Below are positions 17,127 to 23,300 of a stretch of DNA of 64,000 bases, piece by piece. Below the pieces are notes generated by a model. That model was not told the DNA's origin, searched no databases, and worked only from the letters and a program-made list of their open reading frames with translations. The position numbers and the translations under genes were made by a program. Source of the stretch: Gadus chalcogrammus (Eukaryota > Chordata > Actinopteri > Gadiformes > Gadidae); contig NC_079414.1 in NCBI RefSeq assembly GCF_026213295.1, forward strand, positions 15,591,107-15,655,106. The letters run 5' to 3'. The stretch's first letter is position 1. Every line of letters starts with the position of its first letter.

Positions 17127-17323
17127 CTAGTGGGGGAGCGCCACCAGGATATCCACGTAGTTGACGGGGAAGAAGCCCGAGTTGCCCTGCAGCATGCCCT
17201 CGTACCAGTTGTCGTCAATCTTGTTGGTGAGGGTGATGATGTCCCCCTCCTTGAAGCCTAGCTCGCCCTCGTTCTCCGGGTCAAAGTCGTACAGCGCCCG
17301 GCAGCACGGCTGGTCCATGGGAG
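17127..17323 (-). CDS. sh3gl2: sh3gl2 last coding exon (SH3 domain)
   Basis: After the acceptor CCCACAG the exon completes an Ala codon and reads [20 protein letters not shown], then [40 protein letters not shown] and ALPH, stop TAG. The ALYDF motif, the acidic RT loop, the DNWYEG tryptophan and the GFFPVNYV strand are all present, so the proline-peptide pocket is intact. The exon enters in phase 1, matching exon 8 and every microexon. Confidence 0.97.
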
Positions 17324-20300
17324 CTGTGGGGGAGGGGGGGAGGAGAGGGGAGTTAGTTCAGAAGGAGGGGGTCTGGGGTGGAGACGGTGCAATGTGAAAA
17401 GGAAAAACAGTATTCATAATCTCACCTGGAGACCTGGCTGTAACAGGGAGGGTGGAGGAGGGCCGAAGGAGAGAAGGAGAGAGAGGGAGAGAGGAAGAAA
17501 GGAGGGAGGGAGGAAATAGGGAGGGTAAAAGATATTCATTATATATCAAAAAGATTCCAGCAGTGCGTGTCAGAATGTTATCACAATGAAGAGGTACCAT
17601 CGGGGCACACCATCAGAGTTTTTTGGAGCGAGTAACGAGTATATTCACAAGACAAGATGGACCTGAACCACACGAAAGAAAAAGAAAAGCAAAAAGGCAA
17701 GCTGCACTGCAAAATGAAAAGAAAGAAAAAAGATGTCCATCCAAGGTCAAACGCAATGTAAATATAGACCAACGTCACAACAGAGGAGAAAAAAAGAGGG
17801 GAGTGAAAGAAAAATATTTTATCTTCTGCATTTCTCTGTTGGCTCACCTGGAGATCTTGCTGCAAAGGGAGAGAGCGAGAAGAAGAGCAAAGAGGATATG
17901 AGGATAAGAACAGTCACGTGTGTGTTTATACCATTCCAACGGTGGCCCAGAACAGAAAAGTATCGGTAGGGACATGAATAAATCAACGTGTAACATCAAG
18001 ATCAAAAAACGGATCAGGGAAAAAGAAACAACGAATTAAATTATGTATTTTTCCTGCGGAATTACCAAAACTGATCGTAACTGCGCAGATCAACATCTTA
18101 TACTTTCATGTTTCAATATTATTTTGGTAATATTACACATTCCTTTAGTCATGTTAAATTCAGTCTATTTTGGGCATTTATTACAGAGAAGGATGAATCA
18201 ATAAAAGGAAGATGACACAATTAAGGAGAAAATGAATCACTCTTTCACTCATTCTTACATGAATGAGACAGAATACCGGCTAAAGCCTGCCTCCATTTTT
18301 TGTGTTTAACACTTTGAAATGTTTCACCATATTAACACCTTTTGTCCATCCATAAAACGAAATGCATAATTATTGCACAAGTAAAAATTGTTAAGCAGTG
18401 TCTGAGGGAGTATTATTTGGAGATGGTTGATCATCCCGTTCATTCTCACTACTTGTAACTAACAAGAGTGTGAGAGTGGGCGAGAACCAAACATAATCGC
18501 ATAAATCTCAATAAATGTGACAATTCACTCTTCAAAAATTATGAGATTCAAGAAGCAAGCAAACGATTGCTGGATCTCACAATATCTATTTAGCTATCCT
18601 CATCCATCTGTTATAACCTAGTTGGGCGCTGGTAGTCACCATACTCTTTCATAGCGTTCCGTGAATCAATCCAAGCCACTGTTATGTGTGTTTATCTGAC
18701 AGATGATAGACCTGGAGAACTGAATGGAGGCAGGCTTTGAACTTCTTGAGTCAAGAAGAGGTTGGAGAGGGGGAGAATCAAGAACGCACACAGAAACAGC
18801 CTAGGCTTTTCTGCAACGTGACACGGCTTGCATGTCCACATGGCTGATCGTATGTAACATTCTCTGATGACACCGCACTGAACCCCCATCTTTAAAGTCC
18901 CCCGGAAAATCAGGGGATCTACAATAATGCCATGTGGAACACCAGTGAAATAGTCATGAAATGACTATAGTCCTGTACATGAAATAGTCCTGTACATGAA
19001 AAAGTCCTGTACATGAAATAGTCCTGTACATGAAAAAGTCCTGTACATGAAATAGTCCTGTACAAGAAATAAAATGAATGGAGGAACCAAGGAAGGGATG
19101 AAGGGAGCAGGAGGTGATCGGAGAGATGCTGGGTCCCTTCAGGGTTTACAATGGGCTCACCTGGGGACCTTGCTGTAAATAGCGGAAGGAAAAGGTAAGA
19201 AAAAAAATAAAGCAAGGATAGATATGTAAGGATAGTAGGATTCATTGGAATGTAGAAAAGGGACAAAAACATCAGCAATAAACACAGAGGCACACGGATG
19301 GAAACAAATGTTGACCCTCGCTCACCTGGAGATCTGGCTCCTGCAAGAAACACATTAACAAATAACACAGAGAAAGAGAGGCGTTCAGTTCGTCTTATCA
19401 CTAAATGCATCACACCATCCATATTGATTTAAAACAATGTGTAGTTCAATACAGGCTGTTCCTTGTTTTCACTGCTAAAATGTGTCCTGGTCTGAAATAC
19501 AATCCAAACAAACATCTCTCATTTCAACAATCACCGTGTCCTAGTTTAATTACGTCCCTGATCTATGGGGATTAAGACCTGTGTGGTACCACTCACCACC
19601 ACAAGCGGCTGCTCTTTTCATGTATTTTTTTTTTTTTACAAAGTAGCATTATGAAGGAGAATCACAAATAGCAGACTTGGGAATCCTCAGAAGATCCATG
19701 CAGAGATAGAACTCAGACAGATGAAAAGAAAACCAACAAAATGAAATCAATAAAACTGATTTGATTTGAATACAATCCCCAGAAATAACATTTATATTCA
19801 GTCAACAACAGAAGACCGATAAGCCAAAAGATTGAGAGAGACAGAGAGAGGGTCAGAGAGGCAGAGAGAGACAGAGACAGAGCGAGAAAGGGAGAGACAG
19901 AGGCAGAGAAAGAGAGACAGAGAGAGAGAGACAGAGACAGCTTCACGTTTCCATCTGAAGGTGAAGCTAATCTTTAGAATGGTGGCAAAAAATAAATTCG
20001 AATTAGGTGCATTTCCATCAAGTGGTTAGAGCGGAAAACTACACACATTCCAGGGCTTGTCGTATCCTTTTGATAACCTGCTCTCTCTTAGGTCCTGACA
20101 TATAGTGGAATTGCGTTGTTGTTTTCCATCTAAAATGTTTTGTCTATGATCAGAGCAAGGAAAAGTTTTACCTCTTCAGCGGTCCACACACGTAGGCCTA
20201 TCTATTATTCACATTGGCCATCTGTTCCATGGACGTATTTAAAGGATACATTGTACCTATAATATTATAATTATAATTCGAAATTCGTCCCAGCCTTTAT

Positions 20301-23300
20301 ACCACAGATACTCTAGGGTCTATAGCATATAACCGCGTTGTCTGATAACAGTTTAAATCATTTTTAATAATTTACCAGCTCTCGTTTTGAAGACTATTCA
20401 CCGTGCCATTCGTTTCAATGGGAATCGCGACGGTCTATACTTTCAACATAAAGTGTACATATTTATAATTTGAAATTCGCCCCAGCCATTATACTACAGA
20501 TACTATAGGGTCAATAGCATATATCACCGTTTTCTGATTACAGTTTAATGCATATTTCACAATTTACCAGCTCTCGTTTTGAAGGCTGAACAGACAATTT
20601 GACTGGAACTACTTAGTAGGTGTCCATATATCAGGGATTAATGGACACGGTATAATTAAAAGATATACAAACATAGACATCCTATATCATATATATATAT
20701 ATGATATAGGATGTCTATGTATACAAACGCTTAAAAAAATATATATATATTGACGCTACAAGTTGATGTCGGCAGGGTTGCTATGGCCGGTCGTTATGCG
20801 GAAATCGAAAATACGTTGTCAGTCCTGTGTGTTCAATGATCACTACGTCAAAGCTGTTTCAAAAGGTGTGTTTCCATCTCCCATTTTGCACATTTAGTCT
20901 CTTTCGCATAAGTCAAAAACCACCTCAAGCTAGCGGAAAAACTTTTTTGCGAATTAGAGTTTTCATCACCGTTTACTGATTCGATACTACAAAATTTGGA
21001 TAAAAGCAGGGGGATGGAAGCGCAGCTAGAGAGAGAGAGAGAGAGACAGAGACAGAGAGAGAGAGAGAGAGAGAGAGAGAGAGAGAAACAGAGACCGAGA
21101 CAGAGAGACAGATAGAGAGACAGAGACAGAGAGAGAGAGACAGAGACAGGGACAGACAGAGACACAGAGACTGTGACAGAGACAGAGACATGGACAGAGA
21201 CAGACAGAGATAGAGAGACTGAGAGAGGGACAGAGACAGAGACAGAGAGACAGAGAGAGGGAGATATTCAGTCTAGCTCCAGGGCTCCGGCTGAATTCCG
21301 GAAGGAATGAGGCCAGGCTGGGTTCACGCTCTCCGGGTCTTACCTGGGGAGCGGGCTGCGCCACTGACGATGCCTCCATTGTGATTCTCGCTGAAGGTGA
21401 AGTCCAGGGAGGTGCGGGGCTTAGCAACAAACTCTTTCCTGGGTTTGCTGGACGCATCCCTTATTCTGAGAAGGCAGTGCAGACAAGTCAGCACACAATC
21501 ACGCTAATGTTTCAGTCCTAAGGCCCACATGGATGAGATGAGAGAGATCTGAGTGGCGCCGGTACCCACCTCTCCTCGATCTTGGTGGACACCTGAGTCA
21601 GGATCTCTGTGGCCCGGCTGTGGTACTCCACCTGGGCCTGGACCAGGGCGGCCAGCTGGCTCACTTGCTCGATTTGCTGGAGCGGACACAAGAGGGGAAG
21701 AGAGGAGCGTGATTTATGTAGTGCAGCACGCGGTGCCACTGTGTCAGGCGAGTGGGGAGACAGAGCTGTTACACAGTCGTCCGATTCAACAGCTTAAACC
21801 AGTCGGTCATCCGGGAACACTTAAAGGCTGATGTGAAAAGGTTTAGGTTTGTGGGAACTCAGTTTCCATGATATAATATTAACCTTACATTTCCTCAACT
21901 CTATACTAATTGATAACATTAACAATAAGCTGAAAATACAATTCCACATAAATGTACACTTGTACAAACTTCTTTAGCTTTTTTCAAATAGTTGTACTGT
22001 GGTACATTTCCTGCTTTATTCACCCCGTTTTCAGTGACAAAACAAAATAAATCGATGTGAACAGTAAACCAGCCATCAGCTCAGACTCAAGAGTTGGTCT
22101 ACAGGGCAAAGCTGGTTTCATTGTATGACGGTTCAATCAAATTAGGAGATGGAAGAATGAAGAAGAATGAAATCTATATAAACCAAGATATGTTTCTGTG
22201 TATTGACGGTGAGAGTGGTTGTGGGTTGGACCACAGAGCCCGTATTCCTTACGTCCCCCTCCAGTATGTTGAACATGCTCTGCTCTGCAATCTCCTTGGA
22301 GTCGTCGAACTTCTCCAGGGCCTGCTTGATCTCGTCCTCGCACACCTTGCCCTGGCGCTTCTTCTTGTAGTCGAAGTCCAGGCGACGGCCCTCCAGCTTC
22401 TTAAGATGGTGCTGCAGGAAGGAGACGGAGGTGAGGAGAGAGGAGGGAGGCCAGAGGAGGCTGGAGACCACTCACTAGAAGTTTAAATGATTTACCAAAG
22501 GAAAGTTCCAGGATTCATGTCCCATCTGAGTATCAGCTACAAGTTCATTGTTTTTCTCATTCCATAAGTTAAATTTGATAAAATAATAATTCATTAAGCA
22601 ATTAAAATAAATAAAAGAGTAAAAATAAACAAATAGCTGCATACATGAGTAGAAGAAATGAAAGATAAACCAAGAATGTAAATCTAAACATCATTGATAG
22701 TAGAGGGAAAGATAACACTCAGTACACAAGTATAATGTGCTGTGAAAGGATGATTGGCAAATGGCCTCATCTTGTTCTCATAAGAAGGCTTCAGAGGTGA
22801 CAAGGTCAGGTGGAGGGGAGGTTCTTCAGGGCCTCACCTGGACCTCCTTCAGGTCCTTATCATGGAGGTTCTGCAGGGGGTCGATGAAGTTCTGCTTCAC
22901 CTCGATGTCCAGAGCGTCCTTCACCTCCCCAAGCTCTCGCATGGCCTCCCCGGCATCGATCAGAGCCAGGCCTTTAGAACACACACAACAACACCACACA
23001 CACACGAGCGCACAACACACACACACACACAGCACACACACACTCACACTCACACTCACACTCACACACACACACACACACACACACACACACACACACA
23101 CACACACACACACACACACACACAGCACACACACACACACACACAATCAAACACGCGCACAACACACAGACAATCAAACACACACACACACACACACACA
23201 CACACACACACACACACACACACACACACACACACACACACACACACACACACACACACACACACACACACACACACACACAATCAATCTGTTAATACAT

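Follow-up and report, generated by a model that had tools for sequence, protein, structure and literature searches.

Can splicing set the length of the linker that joins the two domains of an endophilin? The question is raised by a 64,000-nt stretch of the Gadus chalcogrammus genome (RefSeq assembly GCF_026213295.1, contig NC_079414.1, positions 15,591,107 to 15,655,106; hereafter the window, with coordinates counted from its first letter), whose minus strand encodes the teleost gene sh3gl2a, with a coding part that runs from 54908 down to the SH3 exon at 17127. The product has an N-BAR domain, a C-terminal SH3 domain and its best match in sh3gl2a, which places it as endophilin A1 (SH3GL2). 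The stretch from exon 8 to the SH3 exon contains four sites that are probably genuine cassette microexons of teleost sh3gl2a, derived by repeated exon duplication, the number of included units setting the length and charge of the linker.

Four candidate microexons upstream of the SH3 exon

An earlier note, made from these letters alone, had proposed minus-strand exons of 15, 12, 12 and 12 nt in this region, and all four are where it placed them: microexon 1 (me1, 15 nt) at 19326..19340, me2 (12 nt) at 19161..19172, me3 (12 nt) at 17848..17859 and me4 (12 nt) at 17426..17437. The introns from exon 8 through me1-me4 to the SH3 exon measure 2003, 153, 1301, 410 and 102 nt. As the note also held, each microexon has its own acceptor (tgcag, tacag, tgcag and tacag, in order) and donor (CAG/GTGAG) and is entered and left in phase 1; the 20 nt upstream of each are 65-90% pyrimidine. 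All four are thus internal exons of at most 27 nt with both splice sites of their own, the size range of cassette microexons, and all four preserve the frame. Because every length is a multiple of 3, each of the 16 possible subsets stays in frame, with a gain in the linker of 0 to 17 residues; the spliced product has 366 residues with all four units and 349 without any.

The peptide assigned to them needs one amendment. The note had every microexon encode Ala-Arg-Ser-Pro, which is correct for me2, me3 and me4; me1 adds Gly-Ala-Arg-Ser-Pro. To this should be added that exon 8 (21344..21465) itself already ends in Ala-Arg-Ser-Pro, closing as GAARSP/G in phase 1, while the last exon (17127..17323) supplies the end of the linker, APMDQP, followed by the SH3 domain and the stop codon. 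With all units included the linker reads GAARSP-GARSP-ARSP-ARSP-ARSP-APMDQP, the first ARSP being part of exon 8, and each unit lengthens it by 4 or 5 residues, among them one Arg and one Ser-Pro site. The four copies vary in three columns, all third codon positions and all synonymous, which is why every copy encodes ARSP. Random placement under a simple model gives this all-synonymous pattern with P ~0.019, a suggestive, not strong, sign that the peptide has been kept.

Sites of this form are rarely produced by base composition. The 4020-nt region holds five candidates of the pattern YAG-[12 or 15 nt]-GTRAG, four of which are the ARSP units, whereas 1000 dinucleotide shuffles of the region gave a mean of 0.223 candidates, reached four or more in 1 of 1000, and yielded an ARSP-ending candidate in none of the 1000. 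Across the entire window the same scan returns five ARSP-ending candidates on the minus strand, namely the four microexons and the final 12 nt of exon 8, and none on the plus strand. A repeat search of the window groups the four sites as a separate family (D5, 26 nt), and AGATCTCCAGGTGAGC, a 16-mer, has only two occurrences in the species' own 630-Mb genome, both inside this array. A possible fifth unit near 18718 (TTCTCCAGGT) was not counted, as the next letters are GTCTA and not GTRAG.

Units in protein records and their alternative use

Microexon use was judged from 189 proteins pooled from three overlapping lists (the best 120 of 2469 matches, 99 of 99, and 120 of 2626). The list of 99 was drawn using the unit-rich linker itself, and the unit counts below are not survey frequencies; each record stands for a cluster at 90% identity, which partly conceals isoforms separated by a small number of residues. 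Records were divided into sh3gl2a-like and sh3gl2b-like by sequence pattern and typed names, not by a tree. The best 120 of the 2469 matches are mostly teleost endophilin A1 isoforms, among them Gadus morhua isoform X3 (P0001), to which the product spliced from the window with me1 and a single 12-nt unit is identical over 358 of 358 residues and in which Pfam matches mark the SH3 domain. Taken by itself, this identity points to Gadus morhua or a very near relative. The joining of exon 8 to me1 can be read in that record and in Gadus macrocephalus isoform X1 (P0104), where exon 8 is joined exactly to me1 and translation then continues through intron and me2 to a stop. Compared with the window, the intron reading of P0104 differs in four residues and in one 17-residue stretch that falls in a tandem repeat. 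This 17-nt repeat (family D2, 18946-19086, in the intron after me2) has six copies in register in the window, and it is here that P0104 is shorter by 17 residues (51 nt, or three repeat lengths).

The earlier note had named a lack of conservation in related fishes as grounds for rejecting the array; at the level of protein records the proposal survives this check, given the Gadus morhua match and two records that have four units in the same order (GARSP, A[I/K]SP, ARSP, ARSP), from Eleginops (P0003) and Nothobranchius (P0005). Three units are found in Esox (P0018) and one in records from osteoglossomorphs, Scleropages (P0029) among them; Lota (P0002), which provides the nearest of the remaining gadiform sh3gl2a records among the matches listed, has none. 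Teleosts account for 160 of the 189 records, with no clean extra unit in 65, one in 46, two in 13, three in 5 and four in 2; the remaining 29 could not be parsed, although the unit pattern was still matched in 13 of them. The 133 sh3gl2a-like teleost records divide into 62 with no unit, 30 with one, 11 with two, 5 with three, 2 with four and 23 unparsed (48 with one to four units), and the 27 sh3gl2b-like records into 3 with none, 16 with one, 2 with two and 6 unparsed (18 with units, which may not be separate exons there). Repeated units occur in none of the 29 non-teleost records (tetrapods, coelacanth, chondrichthyans, polypterids and sturgeon; one of these was assigned to its group by its sequence).

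Both inclusion and skipping are seen at record level in other fishes. Of 22 species groups compared, six pair a record that has units with one that lacks them (Parambassis, Cyprinodon tularosa, Archocentrus, Boleophthalmus, Eucyclogobius and Gouania); sister species or paralogues are mixed in some of the 22 groups, though in none of these six. Alternative inclusion is thereby supported by same-species pairs of annotated isoforms. Percid records, in which a unit spelled ARTP is recognisable, carry the sets {ARTP} (P0054), {GARSP,ARTP} (P0030), {ARSP,ARTP} (P0034, P0028, P0025) and {GARSP,ARSP,ARTP} (P0016), which are four of the eight sets possible for three labelled units, spread over several species, with only the pair P0016/P0034 within one species. 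Such sets, as annotated, fit an independent choice of each exon. Taken as predicted gene products, the sh3gl2a sites are a conserved, combinatorial, repeat-encoding microexon array that lengthens the endophilin linker.

Several points weigh against this interpretation. The isoform records are predictions or annotations at the protein level. Peptide-identical 12-nt units are indistinguishable in the Gadus morhua record P0001, so that which of them it holds cannot be told, and no cod record among the matches listed has all four. With 62 unit-free records among 133 sh3gl2a-like ones, either annotation sometimes misses the array or the array can be dispensed with. Regulatory motifs are also uneven: UGC, the motif expected just ahead of the acceptor in SRRM4-dependent neuronal microexons and scored here without a chance control, stands at -5 of me1 and me3, no nearer than -42 of me2, and nowhere within 60 nt of me4, and the RBFOX site GCATG was not found within 200 nt of any microexon.

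Origin, possible role and competing explanations

The copies stand side by side and encode the same peptide in 12-nt units, as tandem exon duplication would leave them. A small ARSP-encoding exon would have been duplicated repeatedly within the teleost line, and its peptide may then have been kept by selection. The final 12 nt of exon 8 (21355-21344) are preceded by CAG and encode ARSP, a unit-like shape, as if one more unit had been fused to exon 8; we infer that this tail is a natural candidate for the source of the array. Units also occur in sh3gl2b-like records, so the unit may be older than the teleost genome duplication or may have originated on two occasions. The intron flanks of the microexons show no clear common ancestry: among 20 pairs of flanks, 3 had 0, 2 and 4 of 200 mononucleotide shuffles scoring at least as high as observed and the other 17 had at least 11, and the pyrimidine-rich flanks make low counts potentially misleading.

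A 2025 review (PMC12457278) gives endophilin-A linkers as 37-58 residues, reports that swapping linkers influences endocytic function, mentions auto-inhibition that involves the H0 helix, and describes the linker as containing modification sites and as less conserved and less characterised. The most likely mechanism is that unit count determines the charge of the linker and its length, by 0 to +17 residues. Added units could alter the reach of SH3 to partners such as dynamin and synaptojanin, or its folding back on the BAR domain and hence autoinhibition, and the Ser-Pro sites could make the setting switchable by proline-directed kinases. An AlphaFold2 model of P0001 (alignment of 42 of the 189 proteins) was not used; its SH3 domain itself falls below pLDDT 50, which makes low confidence in the linker uninformative. 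More tentatively, the array may be a teleost splicing rheostat, in which neurons would choose 0-4 charged, phosphorylatable (G)ARSP units and so shift, by stepwise linker length, how SH3 reach, autoinhibition and membrane binding are balanced at the synapse; a BAR-only form would come from this region as well. The same two domains with 0 to 4 near-identical linker units would be a natural series for studying linker length, charge and phosphorylation; if the proposal is true, splicing, and not only fixed coding repeats, can determine how many repeats a disordered linker contains.

Another possibility, which we consider plausible enough to keep in view but would not favour, is that the units are real and variably spliced yet nearly neutral, the extra residues being a tolerated spacer without specific role. 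Unit number does differ between records, the many unit-free sh3gl2a-like records speak in the same direction, the unit is spelled variously in other fishes (AISP, AKSP, PRSP, VRSP, ARTP), and lower conservation is what the review describes for the linker (PMC12457278). Mere tolerance accounts less readily for the exclusively synonymous differences among the four cod units and for the shared order of units in the Eleginops and Nothobranchius records.

The records that lack an SH3 domain prompt a different reading, that the array mainly ends transcripts early: a BAR-only endophilin would result when, past a microexon, an intron is retained or polyadenylation takes place within it. Seven records run from a unit into apparent intron without reaching SH3, namely P0104 (Gadus macrocephalus), P0126-P0130 (Sebastes, Dicentrarchus, Festucalex, Dunckerocampus and Labrus) and P0140 (Osmerus), the absence being judged from their tails and precomputed Pfam lists; in the two tested with hmmscan, P0104 and P0127, BAR was found without SH3. 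In the window, reading on in frame from me1 leads to a stop at 18921, and the intron after me2 has the only AATAAA across the five introns, a candidate intronic poly(A) signal (18177..18182, minus strand, read from 18182). Unspliced pre-mRNA would give the same SH3-less records, however, the unit-bearing records counted as clean go on to the SH3 exon, and three ATTAAA in intron 8 make single signals weak evidence. The seven records could be BAR-only endophilin or unspliced pre-mRNA, and early termination as the main function of the array appears improbable. Still harder to sustain is the idea that the sites are chance splice-like sequences or an annotation artefact. Annotation is difficult for exons no longer than 15 nt, as PMC8831610 says for plants, but chance splice-like sites were rejected on the shuffles together with the database isoforms; the empty shuffle control for ARSP-ending candidates, the repeat family formed by the four sites, the exact match to a Gadus morhua isoform and the presence of units among sh3gl2a-like teleost records (48 of 133) leave this explanation already largely refuted.

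The remainder of the gene and comparison with known systems

The other exons of sh3gl2a, all on the minus strand, are exon 1 (coding part, 54864..54908), exon 2 (25767..25835), exon 3 (24068..24140), exon 4 (23591..23734), exon 5 (22838..22971), exon 6 (22253..22411) and exon 7 (21570..21676). Exon 2 is followed by a GC rather than a GT donor (GCATG within 25759-25766), which likely begins a GC-AG intron. Exon 7 (21676-21570) has an extra initial Gln (GDQIEQ) that is also present in the Gadus and Lota records and missing from the three other fish records read (Eleginops, Clinocottus and Nothobranchius). Intron 8 contains a perfect 50-nt palindrome at 20671-20720 and, close to it, a 129-nt direct repeat with copies 86% alike at 20267 and 20459. 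Rfam at gathering thresholds gave no match anywhere in the window.

The closest known setting for the microexon array is the vertebrate neuronal microexon programme, made up of SRRM3/4-dependent exons of 3-27 nt. The array resembles it in having in-frame cassette microexons with near-consensus donors in a synaptic, SH3-containing endocytic gene, and differs in having four near-identical copies in a row, which would vary unit number rather than switch a single insert on or off. Several adjacent tiny optional exons also give combinatorial length variants in NCAM1 (exons 12a-d) and troponin T, as they would in sh3gl2a; the small exons of those two genes are not known to be four copies of one peptide.

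Within the endophilin family, EndoB is named among four genes whose eMIC exons occupy matching positions in fly and mouse (PMC8797185); this too is a microexon in an endophilin-family gene, though in another paralogue, and the passage on it describes no array. In zebrafish brain, 1882 microexons are listed in a supplementary table (PMC7821500), and a counterpart could stand there, although the main text names neither sh3gl nor endophilin. The earlier note knew of no description of such an array, and none was found in open-licence literature in PubMed Central; its isoforms are already in public protein records. Schistosome micro-exon genes, as characterised in PMC4350168, have coding regions made mostly of very small symmetrical exons, with products in secretions or glands. 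The sh3gl2a array would work like such a set of repeat-unit microexons (PMC4350168), but it forms one linker inside a conserved cytosolic protein, its microexons making up 51 of 1101 coding nt and the nine other exons measuring 45-197 nt. On its predicted structure the sh3gl2a array belongs with the cassette microexons of endocytic genes.

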